A stretch of 64,000 nt of DNA from Tubulanus polymorphus. Its lineage: Eukaryota; Nemertea; Palaeonemertea; Tubulaniformes; Tubulanidae. Each line of letters begins with the position of its first letter. The stretch's first letter is position 1. Under the pieces are notes generated by a model, which was not told the DNA's origin, made no database searches, and saw nothing but the letters and a program-made list of their open reading frames with translations. This document shows, piece by piece, positions 1 to 61,950 of the stretch. A program made the translations under genes and the position numbers. The stretch is taken from the NCBI RefSeq assembly GCF_964204645.1, contig NC_134029.1:715501-779500 (forward strand), given 5' to 3'.

Positions 1-2979
1 CGTCTCTATTTCTGATCAAAAGAAAACCGAAATCTATGTATCGATAATCATATGATCGTTCAATTTGACTATTTAAAACTGCCGACAATTCCTACACTGA
101 ATAATAAAAGATTTATCTCGTCTCCACCCATAGACCTGGCGACGGAAAAACGAGCTCGAACAGAAAGCTAAAATTGCTCTGACACACATTCGAAACATGA
201 GAAAATCCGCGGTTAAAAAACCTGACAATAGATCGTCTACAATGCGTATACTTAACTCCATGGCTGGCCTTTTATTGTGATTTTGCGTGATTTGACGCGG
301 TGTTATTTTACTTGAAAATTACACGTGATAAAAAAATAGCCGAGTGAAAGTCGTGGTTTATTCATTCTCACTATAGAAGCTACTGGGTATAGTGTGTGTA
401 TATAGTGTTTGTGTCTCGACCCGGAGAGAGAAAGTGAAGCCGGTATTTATACCAGTCGCAGCTGATTACTGAAAATTACCCTTTATTTGGATAATAAAAT
501 GTCGCTACCCGATCAGGTAATGGGAGTTTGTCGTGTTAAACAGAGAACCAGTCAGTAAGTAATAGTAGAACCAGAGACTGAGAGAGTGTGGCGTATTTTC
601 ATTGCTGTCATTCATTTAAGTGTCAGGACTGAAACCTCGCCGATAAATGCAACTTGAAACGATGATAATTGATGGAATTTTGTCAAGATCAGGTAATGTC
701 AGGATTTGAATTGAGCTTCTGAAATTTGGGATTTAGAATCTAAAACTTAACCGAAAATGATTTCGACAAAGTTTCGTAATTCGAATCACTTGAAACTGGC
801 GAAAATATCATTGAATTTTGGTTTTTGTTCATCGATTTTATAAAGAAATACGCATTTTTGAAAAGCGATGACTGAGGTTAGAGTCGTTTCGGCTGTCGCG
901 AGACTGAGTTCTTGTTTTCTCAGTCGACGCAGCCTCGAGGGCATCTCATCTGGCAATCTGCGAATGACTGCAATTTTTTCGTGACCTTTTTTTCTAACCA
1001 TAAACACGAATTGAGATGTGACTTTATAAATCTCGACCTTTCATAGAAAGACCAGATGTTTATCCACATTGTACCAGATGCACAAGACGATGCCGGATGC
1101 CCCGGGCTTAAATCCACTTTGCACCGATGTTCACGCACAAGAGGCAGCGGAACACATCCATTTACAATAAGCCACTCGCTGTCTTCAAGCAAAATCTGCT
1201 CCACATCCATTCTTAGAACGGTTTAACCCTGACAAGGATTGAAAGGTCACCGGCTATTGTTAGAATTCTAATACGCGGGATTGGACCGTTTAGGATAAGA
1301 ATAGCGAGTATTTTGAGGTTTCCAAAAACTGACATAGATTACAAATATTTCTATAAATCTATCAATCTTTGAGTCCGATTTAAACAATAATCTACAGCTG
1401 TGTGGAACTGGATGCACAAACTAGGAACCCGATTTTTGTTATTTTTGTAACGTAAAATTGGATTGTTTTGTCTAACAACATATTCACCCACTAGCTGTGT
1501 GTATAGCTGTTTGTTAGTCATATCTCTTACCTTTCTTTAGTTGTCGGATTCAGTTTAGGCTTTTATACAGTCAAAAACGGGTCTGAATAAAGTCAAACCA
1601 AGAGCCAACTGCCTCGAGTTAGTTTGTATTCATCATCAAGTAAGAAAAAGATGCTTTATACCTCAAAATCTATCTCGAACCGATATCTATTATAATAGAC
1701 GCGTATCTGGTATTATATAGTCTGTGTATGCCGTCTCTGCTCCGCGTAGACACACACACAGATTAGAGGACATGTTTTAATGCATCATAATCTTTTGACC
1801 GTCGGAAATATTTTCTAAGGACAATAGAGTTTTTATCCGTATCTAATCCGCATTATATTCTCACATGACGGATCTAGATTGAGATTTTAATGCGTTGATA
1901 TTTTTTTCCTTTAGAACCTAATTCTGTATTCATCCCTGTCCGTACTGAATACTAAATCGAGCTGCTTCGGATTTGGAATTTTCTTTTCGGGTGGAATTTT
2001 CAGAATTTAATTCGTCTTCAATTTACCAGGATGATAAATACATCATATATTACTAAAGGAAACATTTCACTTCCATATGATCTGCGTATAATTCAATGGG
2101 AAAAGTCCCTTTCGATTTGAAGAATTAACTCAGCAGTATTTCGACTAATTGTCATCCTATAGTCTCCTTCTCAACCAAAACGTCAAATAAATTAGCTCAA
2201 TGAAACATTTCAGATTTTTTTCTTTGTTATCGTAGGATTTTATCAGATCTTTATCGTTATACATCACGGACATATCGATGGTTATAGAGTTGTAGAATAT
2301 AGTATAGTGACCCTCTGTTGTGTATAACAGATATTCAGTTTGTTCGAGTCAGTCTAAGTGAATCGATGAATCAGTGAATTTTTATGCTTCTCGTTGTACA
2401 GATATTATGAATATTTTACGGTTTAATAATAAGTGCAGATTTGATGCACGTCCGCAACTCATAATAATACATAATCTACATGAAAATAACTACTGGACAT
2501 AAAACTTTATTACGGCGCCGAATATTTTCAGGACTGAAATAATTTCTTCCTGGTTTCATCATCTTCGTGAGTTCCTTTATCGTGACGTGAATGTTTGATC
2601 GATAATTACACAACACGATGTCTCCATTCATTAGGATTCTGATTTTATCAACGGTTTCTGTACTGAAAACATTCGTTGTAACTTCGTTCGACAGTAAAAC
2701 AAATATTGAGTCGTTCATGTAACACAAAATATGATTTCAATACATAATAACAATAATGATTTAGTGATCTATAGATTTAGGAAGGTTACATTATGGAGGT
2801 TTAAACACTGCTTTCAGGAATTTATATAGTTTCACCAGCATTTTTGGGAATTACATAGTTAATAGAACGATGACCACACCCAAACGTGGTGAACGGATAA
2901 TAAGATAAAATCCCACTATTTACAGATTAAAAGAATTTAAAAACCAGAATTTATTTATTCAACCAAAAATATATAAAAG
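1..2979. other. No gene recognised
   Basis: A/T-rich sequence with stop codons in all frames. The only ORF that looks at all protein-like is an 83-codon minus-strand frame at 2476-2727. It has no splice acceptor at its upstream end and no recognisable motif, so it is not called. A copy of the dispersed ACAGCTGTG/GGAACTGGAT motif lies at about 1395-1413. Confidence 0.5.
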
Positions 2980-3021
2980 ACACGACGTTTCGATCTCACC
3001 CTAGAGATCATCGTCAGGTGT
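2980..3021 (-). ncRNA. Hammerhead-ribozyme-like core (retroelement-associated?)
   Basis: On the minus strand the order is ACAC, then CTGACGA, one T, a perfect 6-bp stem (GATCTC / GAGATC) with a 6-nt loop, GAAAC, GTC, then GTGT, which pairs with the first ACAC. This matches the hammerhead order: stem I, CUGANGA box, stem II, GAAA, a palindromic ACGT in place of stem III, GUC cleavage triplet, stem I. It departs from consensus in one extra T before stem II. Minimal hammerheads with very short stem III are known from Penelope-like elements and retrozymes. No reverse transcriptase is visible alongside. It could instead be a conserved terminal motif of a retroelement with no ribozyme activity. Confidence 0.45.
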
Positions 3022-5530
3022 TACGAGAGACCGAACAGACCGGACGGTTTGAGATGATTTCTGACCTAAGCGAACTGTTGATACAATTCAAATAATCCGA
3101 GTTCAAGAAAATAGATGATAAATAGGAACTGTTATTGCTAAGAGATTGGTTCATATTTCAAGCGTCGAAGTTGTCATAGAATCGTCACAGATACCTGAAC
3201 AATGACCATCTCCCTTCGCGCTCCTGAAACTTTGTTTCTAATTCTGACTAAACCTCCTCATTCTGTAACTTATACATCAAATTTCACTTTAAACCGATCC
3301 GGAATCAATAATGCGCCACAGCGAGTTTTTCATTGCACTTTCCGCCGACGTGTCCTGCCGTTTTTAATACGACTTTGATTGAACTTTGGATAATTGATGA
3401 GGGAAGAGAATAGTTGAGCTTTAGACATCCGAAAAAATCATCACCGAGCGATATCTCAAGGCTGTCGGATGAAAAGAGACATCGCGATTGACTATTCATT
3501 GGATAGCTTGCGCGTCTAGGTATCAATATTAAACAGATGTAGTCAGTGTGAGATCTGTTTAGGTTTGTTCTGCGGGGAATGAAACATTTGGCAATTTAAT
3601 CAGGTGTACGTAACGTTTTATTATTCGTACATAAAAAAAGAAAACGGCATGAAGCCGCTATTGTTTGGGGGGACAGGTTTTGTCGACGTAATAAAATGAT
3701 GGAAAACTACATAATACATGTCTATCGATTCTGTAATTTTCAAATATTATTTCAAATCTTCTCTAGAAATTATGAGCTTTCGTATGCGATGAGCAATATT
3801 TCAAGTTGAATAATTTTGAAGACGGTATCAATATTTGCATCCTCGGGATAGTGTTCCTTAGATTTGCCTTGAGACAATATGCGCGGTCATACCACATCAG
3901 TTGCTTATACCCAAAGTTACGAAGTTACCCAAAACCATGCCGCCTGCAGACTATGCAAACTGTATAAAGGCTTACTCCGTACACGAATCGCTATAAGACA
4001 GCGGCGCGGCTGTATCGGAGAGTAGAGGGTTAATATCGCATTGAGATACAGGATGCTGATGTAGTTATACGACGCGCAGACCCGCGACAACAGTCGTCAC
4101 TAATGACAAATCGAAATCAGAAAACGGGAAATTGAATTGACTTTAATAGAAAGACGATTTCGCATTAGAGATTTATATCTTATTCACTGCGGTGAAATCA
4201 TCCACGTTTTAGCTCCCTCTCTCCCGATACAGACAGACTTCAGTTGTCGATGATAATTTACTTCCAGTCAACCACCGATTTCTCTAACAAAACTAGAAGA
4301 AAACCGATAATGACAAAACTGCATTAGTGAACTTTTAATATTATTACAATTCAAGTTGAATTAATGCATCTTTCTTGTGTGAGTTTATTTTGGACTTTCT
4401 TTTTAAAGATTAACTTTTTCCATCGTACGTGAATATGCTTTTTAGAGACATTAGTCTTCGCCAATCCCTCGAGGGGCTCTCCCCAGAGGCAGTATAATAA
4501 TCAGGTGACAAAGTGCCATGAGATTCCTCGATTTTTTGTGGACGCTGAAACTAAGAAAGTCCATTTTCATTTTGCAATCCCTCCACTCGCTTAACGTCAC
4601 GTTTCTAGGACGATCGATGGTTTTTCCCTCGAATCAGGAAACCACTCAGGACGTTATTTTGTAGGCTCGATGTCCCTTTTCGCGAATAAAGGTGTCGATG
4701 CCAGAACTGAAGCTTTGACCAAGAAACGTTTGCCATCACGATTTTAGAGTCTTATCACGCAAAGGAATCATGGCCAGATTTTGGACGATCGAAAGTGTTT
4801 TGTTTTGCCAAATGAAATAGGATAATTCAAACAAGCGCTGTGTGTGGGGGAGATGTGTTGAGTTTCTTCTGCAAGTCGTTTTGTATTTCTCGCTCTGCAC
4901 TGAGAACCTTTTTCAGAACACTTTCAGTTCACACAGATAATTGACAGTAGAGGTTTTAGCGGCGTGACAATGAACGCTGGTTTCCTCGGATTGATATCAA
5001 AGCCCGAACACACACAAAACCAGTGATCAATAGAGATATAACAGTTACCGGTTCTTTCAACCGTATCAAAAACCACAGTTACTTTACACAGATTTTTACC
5101 ATCTCCTGTGGTTTCCTGTGTCCTTGATTGTGATTCCTAGACTTTTGGCTGCAAACCAAAAATAAAGCTAAGACTGGTCTTGCATTGTTAGATCGGTTAT
5201 AGATCGGTTATAGGACCAATTTGGACTAAGGCTTATACGCATTATTTGAATATCTATCTTCGGTTGAGTAATAGAAATGAATGACCTCCTCGTCCGGAAA
5301 ACATGCGCCATCCACGGGAACCGTGTCTCGGAGGTTAACAGAAAAGTCAGCTCAATTAATCACCGAATCACGTGATCTACGAGTAATTAAAGGTCTGATG
5401 TAAATACCAATCAAGTAAAAATCATCACCGCGCATGCGTCACGCAACAGATCATTGTCGGTTATAATTGGGAGCGCAGGATCGATAACGAGGCTACAGCG
5501 GAAGAAAATAGCGAGAATAATTATTCACCT
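3022..5530. other. No gene recognised
   Basis: No supported ORF or RNA gene. A short direct duplication (agatcggttat repeated) lies near 5190-5213, next to a GACTGGTCTT motif that recurs around 7.7 kb and in diverged form at 39.2 kb. Confidence 0.5.
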
Positions 5531-5936
5531 GTGTTAGAATTAATGGGAGAGATGTGGAGAGAAGAGAGAGGAAAGAGAGGAGAGAGAGAGGAGAGAGATG
5601 AGTGGGAGGAGAGAGAGAGGAGAGAGAGGAGAGAGGAGAGTGGGAGGGAGGGAGGAGAGAAGAGAGCGGGAGAGAGGAGAGAGAAGAGAGAGAAGAGAGC
5701 GGGAGAGAGGAGAGAGAAGAGAGAGAAGACAAAAGAGAGCGGGGAGTGAGAAAGAGAGGGGGAGAGAGAGAGGAGAGAGATGAGTGGGAGGAGAGAGAGA
5801 GGAGAGAGAGGAGAGAGGAGAGTGGGAGGGAGGGAGGAGAGAAGAGAGCGGGAGAGTGGAGAGAGAAGAGAAAAGAGAGCGGGGAGTGGGAAGAGAGGGG
5901 GAGAGAGAATAGAGAGAAAGGGAATGAGAGATGAGT
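5531..5936. repeat. Polypurine (GAGAGG-type) satellite with internal 182-bp duplication
   Basis: About 400 bp of almost pure purine on the + strand. A block starting at the ATGAGTGGGAGG near 5598 recurs near 5780, so two near-identical copies lie about 182 bp apart. Long ORFs on both strands here are composition artefacts, rich in Arg/Glu/Gly on one strand and Ser/Leu/Pro on the other. Such tracts can form triplex (H-) DNA. Confidence 0.9.
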
Positions 5937-8900
5937 GAGTAGACCGCGAAGACAGAGTAAAAAAATCTAGAAATTTTTCTATACCTTTCAATATAGCGAA
6001 ATACAAATGAAACGTTTCCGAAACGTTTTGTGTTTTGCCAGGATCAGAAAAAGTGACGAGGGTAAAATGTGATACAGTTTTATTAGTAGGTTAGCCGTGA
6101 TTATTGTATTTTCGACCCTGGCAGGTATTCAATAATTGAGCTGTTGTTGTTTTTACTATAATCATAATAATTACCGTGTGATATAGTTCTCTGTATTGTG
6201 TGTGTGTGCGTACTACGCCTACAGCTAGACCTAACCAGCATCGAGAATGATCTTCACTGAGCTCATGTCTCGAATCCCCTCTGGGGATACTTTCGTTTTT
6301 AAATCATTTCACGTGCAATTTGACATTCAATTTCCTGTTTTTTTCCGACGAGACCGACTAGCCCGACACATCCCCTCGATTCCTGTGGGTAATTACAGGC
6401 CAGATTTTATATCGTATGATATATAAAACCCCGCACTAAAACCACTGACGACAAGGATAAATGTGTAGATTGAAGAGATTATATGTGGTTTTTGCTTCGA
6501 GCTATCGACAGACTTGAAGTTTAGCTTTTAATGGCGCATAGTGGGAGCGTCAGGGTTTATAATCTAGACACCATGGTTGCACCAGTCACGAGGTAGGTTT
6601 CGATTGAACGAATTCCGGTTCCGGATTATTACGAACTCTTTGCCGGCCGTTTCTATCAAATCTGTAGTCTTGTCATGATTTAACTGAAAATACTAATTAA
6701 ATAGTGTAAATTATTCATTTTACTGTCATTCTTCCGGCATCTAAACATCGTAATCAGCGCCTAACAAGGTAAGACCTCCCTGAATGCCAAGTCTCTTTGT
6801 CACCGGTAACTTTAGTTTCCCTGATACAGGTGTTTATTGTTGAACTGTTAACACCTCCTACTGTTTAGAACGATCTATTACAGTAAGTTCTGATAGGAGG
6901 ATGATTTACGCTCTCTCCTCTCCGCCGCACACTGGTGTAATACGCGCAGAATGCTTCGCCACCCCCTCTACCACAGTTATACCTACACTGTAGGATTTAA
7001 ATAGTTCTAAAGCAAGGTGAGATGTTGGTTGCTGTTATATGTTCTGGACGCGGTAGTTTAGTAACCGGAGTAATTATCTAATGCCGCTGTATCTAACTGG
7101 GAGACTGGGGGATAGATCACCATTCTCCTATCTCCTCCTGAGTCTAGGTAAGTATTGGTATCATACATAGATTGATGGTTGTCTCGGGACTCGTAATGAA
7201 AATTGTAATCTCAGAGTCGTCAGACGTGAAACGTTGATGATTTCACGTAAGGGGTTCGGATTATTTTCGGTCATCAATAAATGGTGTGAGCCTTGTCGAT
7301 CTGAGATCTGTATTCTATAATTCTGCAGTTTAATGTCACTCTGTGGAGATTGTCGGCACCGTCACGTCTGTCTTACAGCTTCATAAATCTTTTATTTATA
7401 ATCAGACAAACGCTCACCCGCACCAATTCATCATCATTCTTGCTTTTTAATCTATAGAGTCTGCGGGTTTTTTAAATGCTGCCTCCAGTAGAAACCAGTC
7501 GTCGTCTAGAGGTTAATACGATTAAACACTGGCGCCTGTAGCTATGCATTTTAAATAGGATTACTTGGACATTTTTTGTAGAAGGACCGGTAGCCTGTAG
7601 TATATGCAGGGCCTAGATGCACAGTCGTGACCTAAGTAGAAGCTGCGGTCTTAAATCTTAAGATAGGGTGATAAGTTCGGATAGATCGGCTATAGAAGGA
7701 AGTTGGGCTCAGACCGGTCTTAAATCTAAGCCGTGACTGTGAAACTGGCCGTATCCTATCGCTCTGTGAAGTGGTAATTCTGAGACGAGTTTCTATTCAT
7801 GATTGGTCTTTGAGAATTCTTGTCGTTGATTCAGTCATACCGCGCCGGTTCAGAGATCGGTAAAAACGAAAAAAATCCTTTACGTAATTTACGTTTGAAT
7901 CGGAGCGAAAGGAGAGAAATTTGCTTTTGATTTGTCGGCGAATTTCTGACGCTGTTTTCTATGAGTGATCGTCATCATCGTCGCAAATTAAGGTTACTAC
8001 AAAATCCACTTGAAATCTTGAATCGTCGTTACATCATTTGTATCGTCTGCGAAGAACACGCGGAGTAACTCATCGATACACGAATCATGTACTCCGGCAC
8101 ACGATAATTGTATAAATCAGGGTTTTAAACCTCATCACATTCTATAAAACCCATCAACGTTTGTAGATCTAAGAAGCTCGTCCATTCACAGACCGGAGTT
8201 CCTCCGCGCACAAAACGTGATTCAAACTCGCAGTGGATGATTTTTTTTTCGTCCACTCGAATCGCGGTGAATAGAACTAAAATTACGCCGACGAAACGAC
8301 GACCACAAACCGTAAAATGCTGCTTACTTTATCCGAAAATTGCCATCGCTTACACGATTATTTTTTCCGGTGATATTTTATCGTCGGAACTCAATAGCAA
8401 CCGCGGTTCGTGACGTTGAAATCAAAACGCCATAATTTCACAAACGTCTTTTGAAAGATTTACTGATCTGCTCCTCAGCGGCGGTAGTGGTGATGATGCT
8501 GGCATATTCCAATCTTATCGAATCGAATCAACTCATCTCTGGAATGTTGACTTTAACTGAATTGTACACGCTGCAACTGTCCTAAAGATCTGACTCTGTA
8601 AACACAATCACTCTGATCAGTACTGTCAATAGATATACGCCGTGTAACAGTCACCGATGGTTCACTGTTGTTTGTCTTGTTTGTCCTGGTGTCGCCTCAT
8701 TCAACATACGATGAACGTCATCTTAAAGATGAATGGACCGATTTAAACCGGTCTCAGTTCAAATAATACGATAACTCGACGGACAAATATTCGCCGTATT
8801 CTCTCTCGCATACTGAAAAAATACCATTCGAATTTCTGGTGATCAGCTGCAGCGGCGTGTTGTAGTTTGTGTCGTCGGAATTAGCGGGAGTTTGATTGGA

Positions 8901-9234
8901 TTTTTACGCGCGCTGACACCGCGCGTTCTCTTGAGGAATAGGTTTTTACTCGGAATCAATCGTAGGAACTCCGTAGCTGACACACACACAGAAAAAAATC
9001 CTGTTTAGTTTGGTTATATTGAATTAGACTGGAGGATGTCGATGTAACGTCCCCTGGGTTTATTGTGACAGCTTGCGGTTTTAATACCACGTAACTCAAC
9101 CAATATGACGAGATCTAGTCGGGGAACTGATTTTAAAAGTGTAAATTGGCGCGGTGTGTTTTTATCGAGATATTTTTACAAGGAAAAAGGTCAGTTTTTA
9201 GATGATGAGGCGTCAATTTTCCTGCACAATATTA
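5937..9234. other. No gene recognised; one MITE-like element inside
   Basis: A/T-rich intergenic or intronic sequence with no supportable ORF. It contains the short inverted-repeat element at 7620-7741. The frame that opens at 9105 runs only into the GGGAGA satellite and is an artefact. Confidence 0.5.
7620..7741. mobile_element. Short MITE-like element with CACAGTC ends
   Basis: The left end reads CACAGTCGTGACCTAAG and the right end is the reverse complement of CACAGTCACGGCTTAG, giving imperfect terminal inverted repeats about 122 bp apart. Inside, an 18-bp segment (CGGTCTTAAATCT...) occurs twice as a direct repeat. A related copy of the left part (CCGTGACCTAAGTCC) lies near 39111. No target-site duplication is clear, so the boundaries are approximate. 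Confidence 0.4.
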
Positions 9235-55072: not shown

Positions 55073-57874
55073 CTATTGGGATAAACGTGTAAAACAGGTT
55101 CTAATTTGCTCGATCATGTCACTAGTGGTCATAGAACGTTCGTGTATTCTAAACGCAGCAGCGTTACATCTACGAGTCAGTAAACATGCTGTGTACGCTG
55201 CGGCTACTGTAGGGCCATCGGCTTCAAATAATTCACTGAAATCACGTAAAAAATACTATCACTCCACCTGCTGACAAATCATAGTACTACAGGTCCAGCA
55301 GGAATTGGGACAGTCAAAGTGACTTCACATTTTAACATTCTGTCAATCCGAGTATTTATTTACCTGTGAGATCCAAATTTATGAGCCCAGTAAGAAAAGA
55401 CTCCTAAACTTCCAGCAAGTAAATCACCTTGACCGCCACAACGCCTGGGACTACCTTCATCGCCACAAATCAACCCTAAAACATTCAAATAACAATTATT
55501 AAATTCAAAACCTTCTGAACTCATGTCAAACTGAATTTTTACACTCAGATAAAGAACTCACCACTTTCACCGCGAAATATCAAATCCATTTTACCTTTAC
55601 AAACTATCGTTACATTACCGAGGATTTTGCTGAGTTTAATCACACCAGCGGGTTGGTCTTCAGCGGGTGGGTATTCACCTACCTCTCAAAATAACAATTA
55701 ATACATCTATATCAATCACAGCTACTGACATCGCAGCTAGTACCAAAATGTCAAAAGCAGCGAAACCTCATTACAACCAACTTTAGAGGATCAGTAAATC
55801 AGTTCATTTTAACAACCGCTAGATCATTATTTATATCCAGTATGAATCCAAATTAATAAAACTACCCTATTTTGGACGGAATTCTCAGTTCGTAATAACA
55901 GATAAATCGTAACATCGAAGTACATTATAACAAACAGAATTTTCTTACCACAGCGTGGAATAACTTCTTGAATTCAACTTTATTCGGAGTCAATATCGCT
56001 TTTTGATAACCTTGAATGAGGTCAGGATTTTCGGACAATAAGAACAAACCGTCCTGAAAAATACATGAAATTTCAACCATCTTCAAAATATTTTATATAA
56101 AATCAGTTAATATATACCATGATATAACAGCCTAGCCGCCCTCCTCCCTCCCTCCCTCCCTGCCTCCTAGTTTATAACTTACAGCATCAATAACTATAGG
56201 TTTATTCAGTTTCATAGCGTGTTCAAGCAGTATCTGAAATAATTCAAATTGAAATTTGTGGAGCACGAGGGAATTTGAATTTTATTGATAAAACTATTGG
56301 CTCAATATACCAACTTTAGTATTATCCAAAAGAAGTTTATCTCTGCCTAAACCTGGACCAATCACTAACGCGTGCATCTTGCCAACCCATGTTTCCATTT
56401 CACTCTCAAATTTCTCATCATCACTGAAACAACAAGATCCTATGAACTCAAACAGAGATCAAACATCAAATAACTAAGATATTTAAATTAAATATCTTAT
56501 TGAATTAATACTTACAGTATAGGATGAACTATTAGTTCAGGACTGTAAGATTTAATCACAGGAGCCGCAGCGTTCGTACAAAATACATGAGCTAGATCAG
56601 CTCCCTACAAATACATGAGCTAGATCAGCTCCCTACAAATACATTACATATCAGCTCCCTACAAATACATTACATATCAGCTCCCTACAAATACATTACA
56701 TGTCAGCTCCCTACAAATACATTACATCAGCTCCCAAAATGTTAGCTCCCTACAAATAGACTACAAAACTTATAAGCTCCCAACATATTGCAATTATTCA
56801 TTCCAGAAAACAAATCAGTTCCCTTTATATTAGAAAACAACTGAGGAATTTGAATGTTTCAACGTGTATACTTACTACTTTTAATGCAGAAATAGCAGCA
56901 AAATATGGAGCACCAGTATATCTGTAATAGGAGTAGTTATCAGTTTATATCCAGAGGGAGGGGAGCGAGAAGAGTCTATCTATGAAGTGAAACCCTCTTC
57001 CTCCATCCAGATCAGTTTTAACCGAGGAAATTCACTCGATCGATGAGATATCTCGATTGAAAATTCATTCTTTAACACAAACATAGGTAAATAGTAACTC
57101 ACTTGGGCCATAGAGGCTCGTATCAGAGTTGTAGGTAATGTAAAAACGATAATCTGTTAATCCAATGTATATAGTATATAGAATAACATACTATATACAT
57201 TGGATTAACAGATTATCGTTTTTACATTACCTACAACTCTGATACGAGCCCCTATGACTTGGGCAAAAGATAAAAATGTGGATTAAACTGACCTGACTGA
57301 ATTAAATTTACACTTACTCTTTACAACCACCAACAATTCCAATTCGACCTGATTGACCCTTATACGATTCATAAGTTAACGGCGGTATTATACTCTGTAC
57401 CATTTCAGTGAACCTACACTTGTCTCCACGATACACGTCAAAACCTCGCTGTTTAATACAACTTACATATCCTACAAATAGTCAACTTCATTGTTTAATA
57501 GGCTTTTACAAATAATTCAACCTCATCGTTTTACTTTTGATAAAAGTGCAGATCCGCACATCTCGTGATTGATGCAAATTACTGAATTACAAATCACTGT
57601 TATAGCTTCCGAATGTCTCACAGAATCCAATGCAGTGGTTTATATTATGATAATTTCATGAGAAAGTAGTTTTTGGCCCAGTTTTTATCTCAGAATTGTG
57701 ATGAGCTTTCAATAGGACGCCATATTGGATTGGGAACGTTTATTTTCTCAGGGAGTTAAACCACGACTGTGACAGCGCAATAAAACCAGTATAATGATAA
57801 TGTTACCGACCTCCTCTAAATTTTCCTCCATTTCTAGCAGTCATATAAAGCCACAAACTTCCTAATGTGAACAT
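55073..57874 (-). CDS. NAXD: ATP-dependent (S)-NAD(P)H-hydrate dehydratase (NAXD/CARKD), 10 exons, 337 aa
   Basis: Metabolite-repair enzyme that dehydrates S-NADHX/S-NADPHX with ATP, acting with NAXE epimerase. Exons, 5' to 3' on the minus strand: 57811-57874, 57318-57471, 56876-56921, 56516-56604, 56315-56423, 56183-56233, 55949-56053, 55562-55682, 55364-55475, 55073-55235. All join in frame. Ribokinase-like (YjeF C-terminal) motifs are GRIGIVGG and [10 protein letters not shown] near residues 63-80, GPGLGRD at 140-146, VIDADGLF at about 168-175, LTPNKVEF at 192-199, [12 protein letters not shown] at 257-268 with catalytic Asp264, and TTSDMI near the end. Length is close to the human enzyme. 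The N-terminus ([20 protein letters not shown]) is basic and hydroxylated, as in mitochondrial presequences. The donor after 56315 (AAA/GTTGGT) is weak. The first exon is the least certain. Confidence 0.93.
56605..56765. repeat. Minisatellite grown from the NAXD exon 4 acceptor
   Basis: Units containing TCAGCTCCCTACAAATACAT recur about five times directly next to the exon boundary. The first unit copies 28 bp that span the acceptor and the start of the coding exon; later ones drift to TTACATATCAGCTCCC. It lies in the intron between exons 56876-56921 and 56516-56604. Confidence 0.85.
57101..57264. mobile_element. Palindromic MITE with 8-bp target-site duplication
   Basis: Arms 57115-57177 and 57188-57250 are perfect 63-bp inverted repeats around a 10-nt loop. 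One mismatch further out extends them to 57109-57256 (ends CATAG...CTATG). ACTTGGGC occurs directly before (57101-57108) and directly after (57257-57264), as expected for an 8-bp target-site duplication. Eight-base duplications point to hAT- or P-type transposases. It has no coding capacity and lies in NAXD intron 2. Confidence 0.92.
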
Positions 57875-59942: not shown

Positions 59943-61151
59943 GCTCAAAATACATATTACAGTAAACCTAACTTACTCCTAACTCGGAGAACTTGGCCAA
60001 ATGGGACTTATGACTAAATTGGGACAAAAACAGAATTATTTTCAGATTTCCTCTGATCTGATTTTTCCGATTGTTGACTCGGAATTCTGACTTATTTCTC
60101 CACATTTCCGGTACGCCCCGAGTTAGGAAAGAAAGAGGTCTACGGTTTACAGTAGGATGACTTGTTTTTCCGATAAAAGAGGGCGTTGCTCGGAAATCAA
60201 TAAATAAATCCGCATTCGCAAATGCAGACGACAGCGGCGGCGCAGCGGTACAACATGACATACGTAAATACAAGCAAAACTTCTAGAAAAAAATCACCCA
60301 AATTCTTCACTCAACCGGTTAGAACCGGAGCCCTATCAGTGAGCATTAGTTTATGATTACTATAGAGGTCACTACCAGTCAGTCAGTACTAGTCCCCCCC
60401 CCACAATGTGACCATTAATATATCTTAACAATATATAATCTAATATACAGTTATATATAATATATGTATTCATACATTTCAATGATGACCACGTGATGCG
60501 TATGTATTTATTTGTAATGATGGTGATTTGAACATCTGACCAAGCTCAAGACTCAATGATACAATAGCGGGATAACCTCAATTGAAATTATCATCTCTAT
60601 CAAACTCGACGAATCGAAATACAATGTAGTAGAATCGTAGATATACGAAAATCATGATCCGATTCTTAACATGGATCGGGGATCATCTAATATCCGTCTA
60701 AGCTTATTTTAGTTCTGAAGTCAATCTAACAAAATTTCTCGACCTAAAACACGACTGTCCCAGCGAACAACTAGTCCTAGAAGTTTGTTTTAACATAAAC
60801 CTAGGCTATCCACTCACTCGACTAGGAGTCAGTTGAGTAAGTTTTAAAAACTTGTACATAAAACCAACCGTGAGATCCGTTTTGCGAAAAAAGTTCAAAG
60901 GTTTAAACAGTTTTTAATAGTAGACATCACAAAACATGAAGCGACCGTAAATAACTAAATAAAATATTTTATCTTTTTACGAAAATCTGGATGCTGGGTT
61001 TAGAAAATAATTTGCTGAATTGAAGCTGTGATACAATGCGGAGCAGATTTTGACCAATAGCTGGACCTTGTGTCAGACTAAGGCAGACTTCGATTGGTCA
61101 GTTTTGGCGCATTCGCTACGACCAGAATACGCCCTATCTATTCTGGAAAAG

Positions 61152-61391
61152 TGTAATCTATAAACCTGATAGAAGCGGCCGGTAGAGAGTTTGTAATCTG
61201 TAAACCTGATAGAAGCGGCCGGTAGAGAGTTTGTAATCTGTAAACCTGATAGAAGCGGCCGGTAGAGAGTTTGTGATCTGTAAACCCGATAGAAGCGGCC
61301 GGTAGAGAGTTTGTAATCTGTAAACCTGATAGAAGCGGCCGGTAGAGAGTTTGTAATCTGTAAACCTGATAGAAGCGGCCGGTAGAGAGGA
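61152..61391. repeat. 40-bp tandem repeat, 6 copies
   Basis: Six near-identical 40-bp units containing AACCTGATAGAAGCGGCCGG, then TAGAGAGTTTGTAATCTGT. The minus-strand ORF across it reads a repeated peptide but lies in presumed UTR. Confidence 0.95.
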
Positions 61392-61950
61392 TGTAATCTG
61401 AAAATGCTATTGCAAAACTGGAATACGTCCAATTATAACCTGCCTAAAATACATTTCTCAAATAGAGCAATTTTTAATCAAACAATTTACATGGTAAACC
61501 TCAAAACAGCGACATATGCTGCCATAACTCAACAAATAAAATGTTAATATTTGGAAGAATAATTCAAAATGATTCCAATCAATCATTGGTTTTTTACAGC
61601 GGAACCTCATTAAGATAATTTATTGGCTCCAATGAAACTCGAATTACATCCTAATAATTTCATTGCGAATATTTAGAACTATCAGTAACGAACAAAATAA
61701 TCCGGTGCCTTAAATTGTTTGTAACGAGGTTTCGCAATAAAAGCGCCGAGCTCCAGATTTGGATTCAATGTCGTCAGGAAGAGAGATAGTGATATAAACT
61801 TACACACAGATAATAAAATGATAAAATTAATTGAGGTGATTATGTAATGCTACCTTGACTACTGGTTTGATTAAGAATAGCCTCCTGAGAACCATTCTGG
61901 CGTGTTTTAAGCGGTATCGAGTCTTGCGCTTGGTCAGATGATGTTATATA

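Follow-up and report, generated by a model that had tools for sequence, protein, structure and literature searches.

A young palindromic MITE in a NAXD intron of Tubulanus polymorphus, and mostly private scars at the dyads of its family

The element and its setting in NAXD

The window, a stretch of 64,000 nt from Tubulanus polymorphus (C5:715501-779500 of the single assembly, 267.8 Mb in 77 contigs, in which all genome searches were made), carries a palindromic MITE in an intron of NAXD, a gene read from the minus strand. The element and the parts of the gene nearest to it are laid out as follows.

57101..57108, no strand: target-site duplication (TSD), left copy, ACTTGGGC (sequence read)
57109..57177, plus strand: left arm of the MITE, a terminal inverted repeat (TIR) of 69 nt beginning CATAGAGGCTCGTATCAG (inverted-repeat detection)
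57178..57187, no strand: 10-nt loop, part of the asymmetric centre (comparison with a 162-bp perfect palindrome)
57188..57256, minus strand: right arm of the MITE, a TIR of 69 nt beginning CATAGGGGCTCGTATCAG on the minus strand (inverted-repeat detection)
57257..57264, no strand: target-site duplication, right copy, ACTTGGGC (sequence read)
56922..57317, minus strand: NAXD intron holding the MITE, 396 nt, GTAAGT...TTACAG (boundaries by eye)
57318..57475, minus strand: NAXD exon upstream of that intron (outer boundary approximate)
56876..56921, minus strand: NAXD exon downstream of that intron, 15 residues (boundaries by eye)

The element itself is 148 bp long (57109-57256) and lies between exact 8-bp duplications, so that the whole occupies 57101-57264. 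This agrees with the first-pass annotation, which had described, at these coordinates, perfect arms of 63 bp extending to about 69 bp, a 10-nt loop and an intact 8-bp TSD. A repeat search returned arms of 69 nt that are 99% complementary and stand 10 nt apart, and as the sixth base from the end is their sole mismatch, the perfect arms are of 63 bp (57115-57177 and 57188-57250). The next-longest perfect arm pair in the window measures 15 bp, and in 20 first-order Markov resamples of it (gap of up to 200) the longest was 11-14 bp.

The proposed placing of the MITE inside NAXD also holds. The joined translation of the adjacent minus-strand exons matches NAD(P)H-hydrate dehydratase (PF01256, E 7.4e-21); of three exons scanned one by one, two hit PF01256 at less than the curated cut-off and the third had no match. 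The MITE is flanked by a GTAAGT donor and a TTACAG acceptor, recognized by eye, and the intron comes to 240 nt once the element and one copy of the TSD are subtracted. Splicing would remove the MITE along with the whole intron of 396 nt, and in all likelihood the element is neutral or almost neutral. In another NAXD intron a unit of about 27 bp (GCTCCCTACAAATACAT...) is imperfectly repeated in tandem (56590-56760, by eye), and elsewhere in the window (61073-61432) a tandem repeat leaves three minus-strand frames open, with the repeating peptide STGRFYQVYRLQTLYRPLLSGLQ.

A family of short palindromes

Searching the genome with the DNA of the window element gave at least 82 strand-matches (40 of 349 candidates were scored). 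A search with the end motif of the first-pass annotation, allowing up to two mismatches, found 388 TIR-like ends (199 + 189), against 1 + 4 for the reversed control. That motif, with CATAG as in the window copy, is a minority variant (12 exact matches) and not the family's usual end, which is CACAGGGGCTCGTATCAG (111 + 68 = 179 exact occurrences). Since copies were found by similarity to the window copy or by exact or near-exact TIRs, old and decayed members are under-represented. Elements starting CACAGGGGCTTGT were also encountered at L047:2187-2791 and L080:4300 (one with TIRs of about 145 bp), and form a wider clan having its first bases in common with the ends of the MITE family.

The loci fetched comprised 60 distinct elements with both ends within 2 kb: 46 are no longer than 200 bp, four are of 201-700 bp and ten are longer. 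Their flanks match at seven or more of the eight TSD bases in 38 cases, and perfectly in 27, whereas among mismatched pairs of flanks taken from different copies only 3 of 3,540 reach seven, which establishes the 8-bp duplication as real. The genome search recommended by the first-pass annotation, for ends together with 8-bp duplications, thus returned many copies with both, and the window element is not a lone one. Target sites lean to YTGTTNNAACAR (38 sites, the logo being symmetrized by construction). The idea that single target sites are palindromic did not survive comparison with random sets, of which 929 and 2,334 of 5,000 reached the observed value.

The family has terminal inverted repeats and a fixed 8-bp TSD, and its short members are non-coding and multicopy. 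The window copy is therefore a real MITE, and a young one, belonging to a family for which no master was found. That much is ordinary, as is the presence of a MITE in an intron; what should interest specialists in palindrome stability is the set of scars at the dyads of the family, to which we return below.

Folded as RNA, the window element is predicted to form the very stable hairpin that had been expected of it (-109.5 kcal/mol), and the predicted fold of the intron has -174.1 kcal/mol with the MITE, against -51.8 for the joined flanks (folding limits 56925-57318, up to 3 nt off the tabulated boundaries). A scan against Rfam returned matches to microRNA families on each strand together with some others, none of which reached its gathering score. 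These might have spoken for a hairpin gene of the host, such as a microRNA precursor, in place of a transposon, but they are what any such near-perfect hairpin would give, and the TSD, the TIRs and the dispersed copies refute an origin of that kind, to which we attach a vanishingly small probability. The human MITE Made1 (hsa-mir-548) offers a closer parallel: it too is a near-perfect palindrome, derived from the mariner element Hsmar1, in which two 37-bp TIRs enclose a short spacer of 6 bp, with many copies and a stable RNA hairpin, and it shows that palindromic MITEs are able to feed the microRNA pathway (PMC1784062). By that precedent the window MITE might conceivably be a source for the same pathway; the present family differs from Made1 in its 8-bp TSD, its arms of 69-81 bp and its copy-specific centres.

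Long-TIR relatives and the origin of the short form

Five of the longer relatives (L029, L030, L032, L036 and L038) are of 1.1-1.2 kb. The TIRs of L029, L030 and L038 are 511-522 bp long and 94-96% identical, and those of L032 and L036 are 328-368 bp long and 91% identical. Because the first c. 80 nt of these TIRs are the MITE arm, the MITE is recognizable as the joined outer ends of the long-TIR form: the outermost 70-81 bp or so, present twice, head to head. Long forms are common, a motif of the inner TIR having 92 matches across the genome.

Reduction of this kind has a counterpart in Galileo, of the P superfamily, which also has long TIRs, TIR-only derivatives and a TSD of 7 or 8 bp (GTATTAC, a palindromic target; PMC3573991, PMC4168063). 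As described in those sources, TSDs of Galileo are mostly of 7 bp and its TIR-only forms are of 1.7-2.2 kb; the present family, in contrast, has an 8-bp TSD, short forms of about 150 bp, and no P transposase near its listed ends. Two further elements with the family end (L031:601-2007 and L046:601-1252) contain internal tandem repeats of about 154-157 bp that recall the repetitive TIRs of Galileo. The P-MITEs of Anopheles gambiae are likewise short and non-autonomous, have a TSD of 8 bp and have their ends in common with a larger family, but their central region is unrelated to P and their P relatives have been identified (PMC1562414), whereas the MITE described here is TIR throughout and no master was found for it.

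Private scars at the dyad

The centres of the copies were compared in 37 elements of 100-200 bp with a TSD matching at six or more of eight bases, drawn from the 46 short elements, with a perfect palindrome of 162 bp as the reference. Two copies, L024 and L028, have this length, no central indel and the dyad AAC|GTT, with a mismatch beside the dyad in L028. Measured against the perfect palindrome, 12 nt are gone from the window copy on the right side of its dyad and 2 nt on the left side, so its 10-nt loop is the lopsided remnant of a longer perfect palindrome.

Lesions of this sort are nearly universal. Alignment to the 162-bp form places an indel within the central 32 nt of 35 of the 37 copies; this fifth of the element holds 46 of the 80 indel events and is overlapped by 27 of the 32 deletions of at least 5 nt, 13 of which, by alignment, remove the dyad itself. 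The lesions are also mostly private. No centre is identical to another and only seven are within three edits of one, while for the outer 49-nt blocks 12 of the 37 copies are identical to another and 31 are within three edits. There are a few near-alike centres (those of L009 and L025 differ by one edit, and the window copy and L062 have, by eye, a 16-nt core in common), so some scars may have been inherited through transposition.

The long-TIR relatives provide a built-in control, as their ends contain the same letters away from any dyad. An indel is found there in three of 23 ends, compared with 61 of 74 half-centres in the short copies (Fisher p 2e-9, taking copies as independent and scoring a deletion that crosses the dyad in each half). 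Ends were admitted to this control if they had a matching inner motif (up to four substitutions) within 135 nt of the TIR, and the most altered long-TIR ends were dropped by that requirement. The AT-rich centre does favour indels, although the control has the same letters. Scars are present, moreover, in all seven of the copies that are young by arm-arm identity (at least 0.985), identity to the consensus (at least 0.96) and TSD (at least seven of eight bases). Taken with the control, this indicates that lesions accompany the dyad and arise early in the life of a copy. Thus copies with TSDs show early, mostly private lesions centred on the dyad. No title or opening of an abstract among those listed by a narrow search of the open-licence literature mentions such scars for a MITE family.

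Two other accounts of the private centres need to be weighed. Each short copy might have been born separately from a long-TIR element by internal deletion, the diversity of centres then reflecting many births; long-TIR relatives are indeed numerous, to judge by the inner-TIR matches, and TIR-only elements are known for Galileo (PMC3573991). However, most inner breakpoints fall within about 20 nt of one dyad though the TIRs reach about 520 bp, and two copies of 162 bp have no central indel, so we regard this account as unlikely. It is very improbable that the private centres are errors of sequencing or assembly at hairpins, even though the centres of palindromes are hard templates: the assembly passes through the dyads of the same two copies with no central indel, many of the lesions are large (as much as 49 nt) and they vary from locus to locus, and the outer arms of many copies are clean.

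How the dyad might be revised

We consider it highly probable that, as a whole, the window element is best explained as a young, non-autonomous, cut-and-paste palindromic MITE that has been revised at its dyad. It would have been mobilized in trans by the transposase of a superfamily that makes 8-bp TSDs, P-like or hAT-like, and the moving or parental form would have been the spacer-free 162-bp palindrome. This could extrude as a hairpin or cruciform, which might be cut near its tip and rejoined by end joining, on integration or shortly afterwards; the small, asymmetric deletion or insertion left by the rejoining would stabilize the palindrome.

Precedents for such events come from engineered palindromes. 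As reviewed in PMC8701086, a perfect palindrome in a mouse transgene underwent small deletions and more complex junction changes in some 35% of offspring; in cell culture, 93% of 118 palindrome rearrangements were deletions, with a 25-fold gain in stability when symmetry was broken. The likeness lies in small, mostly deletional and stabilizing changes that break the central symmetry; the difference is that the transgene was an engineered 15.4-kb palindrome at one locus, while here there are natural palindromes of about 160 bp at many loci. In yeast, Mre11 attacks only hairpins with loops of less than 9 nt (PMC8053094). The innermost stem of at least 8 bp encloses 9 nt or more in 28 of the 37 copies (including L028; the window copy has 10), a raw count that would be consistent, by analogy, with the loop limit of the yeast enzyme; spacers of less than 9 nt remain in the other nine. 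A more specific form of lesion, deletion on one side of the dyad, was suggested by the aligner and is not claimed, because an ungapped measure departs from expectation: exactly one arm reaches the dyad in 10 of 37 copies, both do in five and neither in 22, whereas the null for a single deletion is 78% one arm and 22% neither.

A stronger proposal can be put forward tentatively, as one that may prove to be too sweeping. According to this, the dyad of every germline insertion of the mobile form, a spacer-free perfect palindrome of about 162 bp, is revised in the course of integration or immediately after it, ahead of any build-up of ordinary mutations, and scarred copies rarely transpose again, so that the family would be an archive of revision. 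L024 and L028 are symmetric though not among the youngest, from which it follows that revision is not obligatory and can be escaped. If the proposal is true, the family constitutes a genome-wide natural record of palindrome revision in an animal germline. Central revision is known from engineered constructs; here its outcomes may be read at many natural germline sites, the family offering dozens of inserted copies of a single near-perfect palindrome, each of which can be dated from its arms and TSD and nearly all of which have a dyad lesion of their own.

Age and co-evolution of the arms

The first-pass annotation had offered two reasons for the perfect arms of the window copy, recent insertion and gene conversion between arms. 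The first is borne out: with an arm-arm identity of 0.985, the copy is tied 4th-8th among 43 short copies, its identity to the family sequence averages 0.963, and its outer 62 nt depart from that sequence only by C3T (also present in L014 and in one arm of L017) and one unshared change. Youth suffices to explain the perfect arms, so conversion is unneeded for this copy, although there is evidence for it in other members of the family.

That evidence is of several kinds. Variants common to both arms of one copy number 30 in the 37 copies, against 4.8 +/- 2.2 when arms are shuffled among copies (maximum 15 in 5,000 shuffles); the arm-arm distance is 0.064, against 0.081 +/- 0.002 shuffled (40 copies; 0 of 20,000 shuffles); and complex indels occur on both arms in L062 and in L085, the latter having a poor TSD (four of eight bases) and lying outside the 37-copy set. 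In yeast the arms of inverted repeats are homogenized by template switching (PMC8604942), and template switching between arms is the likeliest process for the co-evolution of arms in this family. It is nevertheless improbable that the perfect arms of the window copy were restored in this way, or by arm-to-arm gene conversion, and do not simply reflect youth. This copy has no private two-arm change and its outer 62 nt are close to the family sequence; in the family at large, only 20 of 80 arms have their own partner among the arms nearest to them (many arms being identical), and separate founder palindromes would likewise yield variants common to both arms.

The search for an autonomous partner

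The first-pass annotation had looked to a hAT or P transposase with matching termini. No association of either kind with the listed family ends was found, and membership of either superfamily is at most putative. A search for P and hAT domains and for exact or near-exact ends found no autonomous partner with the ends of the family. None of 20 matches to the P transposase domain (PF21787) lies within 10 kb of a listed TIR (0.23 expected; the nearest is at 92 kb), and for the hAT dimerization domain (PF05699) two of 79 do (0.92 expected), the nearest being in a 759-aa frame at C2:21828027. These figures, which indicate no association, refer to a nearly complete list of TIRs made up of the first 100 of the 111 exact ends that follow an A, G or T (the last at C10:9475318, coverage being thin from there to the end of C10 and over later contigs), the 68 that follow a C, the CATAG ends and the inner-TIR matches; the proximity script used 179 positions, most close pairs being entered by one end.

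A TSD of 8 bp, as in the family, is a feature of the P superfamily (7-8 bp in Galileo). In hAT elements the 8-bp TSD follows the pattern nTnnnnAn, with T at position 2 and A at position 7, and the ends follow YARNG. T has a frequency of 0.54 at position 2 of the family's target sites (symmetrized logo, 38 sites), a preference and not a rule, and the ends (CACAG in the family, CATAG in the window copy) depart from YARNG in that position 3 is not R. Duplications of 8 bp are usual for hAT elements and are made by Zisupton too (PMC12730594).

Two candidate partners were considered and set aside. At L089 (C4:10820400-10829800) family TIRs stand 9.25 kb apart with DDE-like frames inside, which looked promising, but searches with the flanks on the inner side of those TIRs assigned the frames to a separate element of about 8.0 kb (L089:~923-8940, i.e. 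C4:~10821322-10829339), which is nested in a family member of 1.24 kb and has other full-length-like copies elsewhere. At L043 a THAP frame (L043:1144-1509; PF05485, E 1.6e-8) lies about 0.5 kb inside a family TIR, and was not accepted because that TIR ends some 358 bp in and is followed by a piece in common with L045, behind which the frame stands.

The 8.0-kb nested transposon deserves mention for its own sake. It has the ends TAGGTAT..ATACCTA and an apparent 7-bp TSD (CCCTCGA; CCCCTGT for a relative at L076, both by eye), and DDE-like frames of 560 and 381 aa (motifs by eye) for which Pfam and the PDB gave nothing convincing and, for the transposase, viral contigs gave no relative. Across the genome 42 matches to the 560-aa frame were found, ranging from the frame itself and pieces of 97-99% identity down to 23%. 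It is possible that this transposon represents an undescribed transposase group.

Among the hAT matches, eight have an equal score and the same 735-aa open frame (C1:14447331, C1:18035851, C3:15882425, C4:18038573, C6:17126694, C7:8671513, C10:7224345 and C12:11242492), and these loci are probably a recently active autonomous hAT family. Finally, multi-frame stretches at L046:5929-8000, which includes a DNA polymerase-like frame, and at L074:1822-6271 appear by eye to be of the Polinton type or virus-like.
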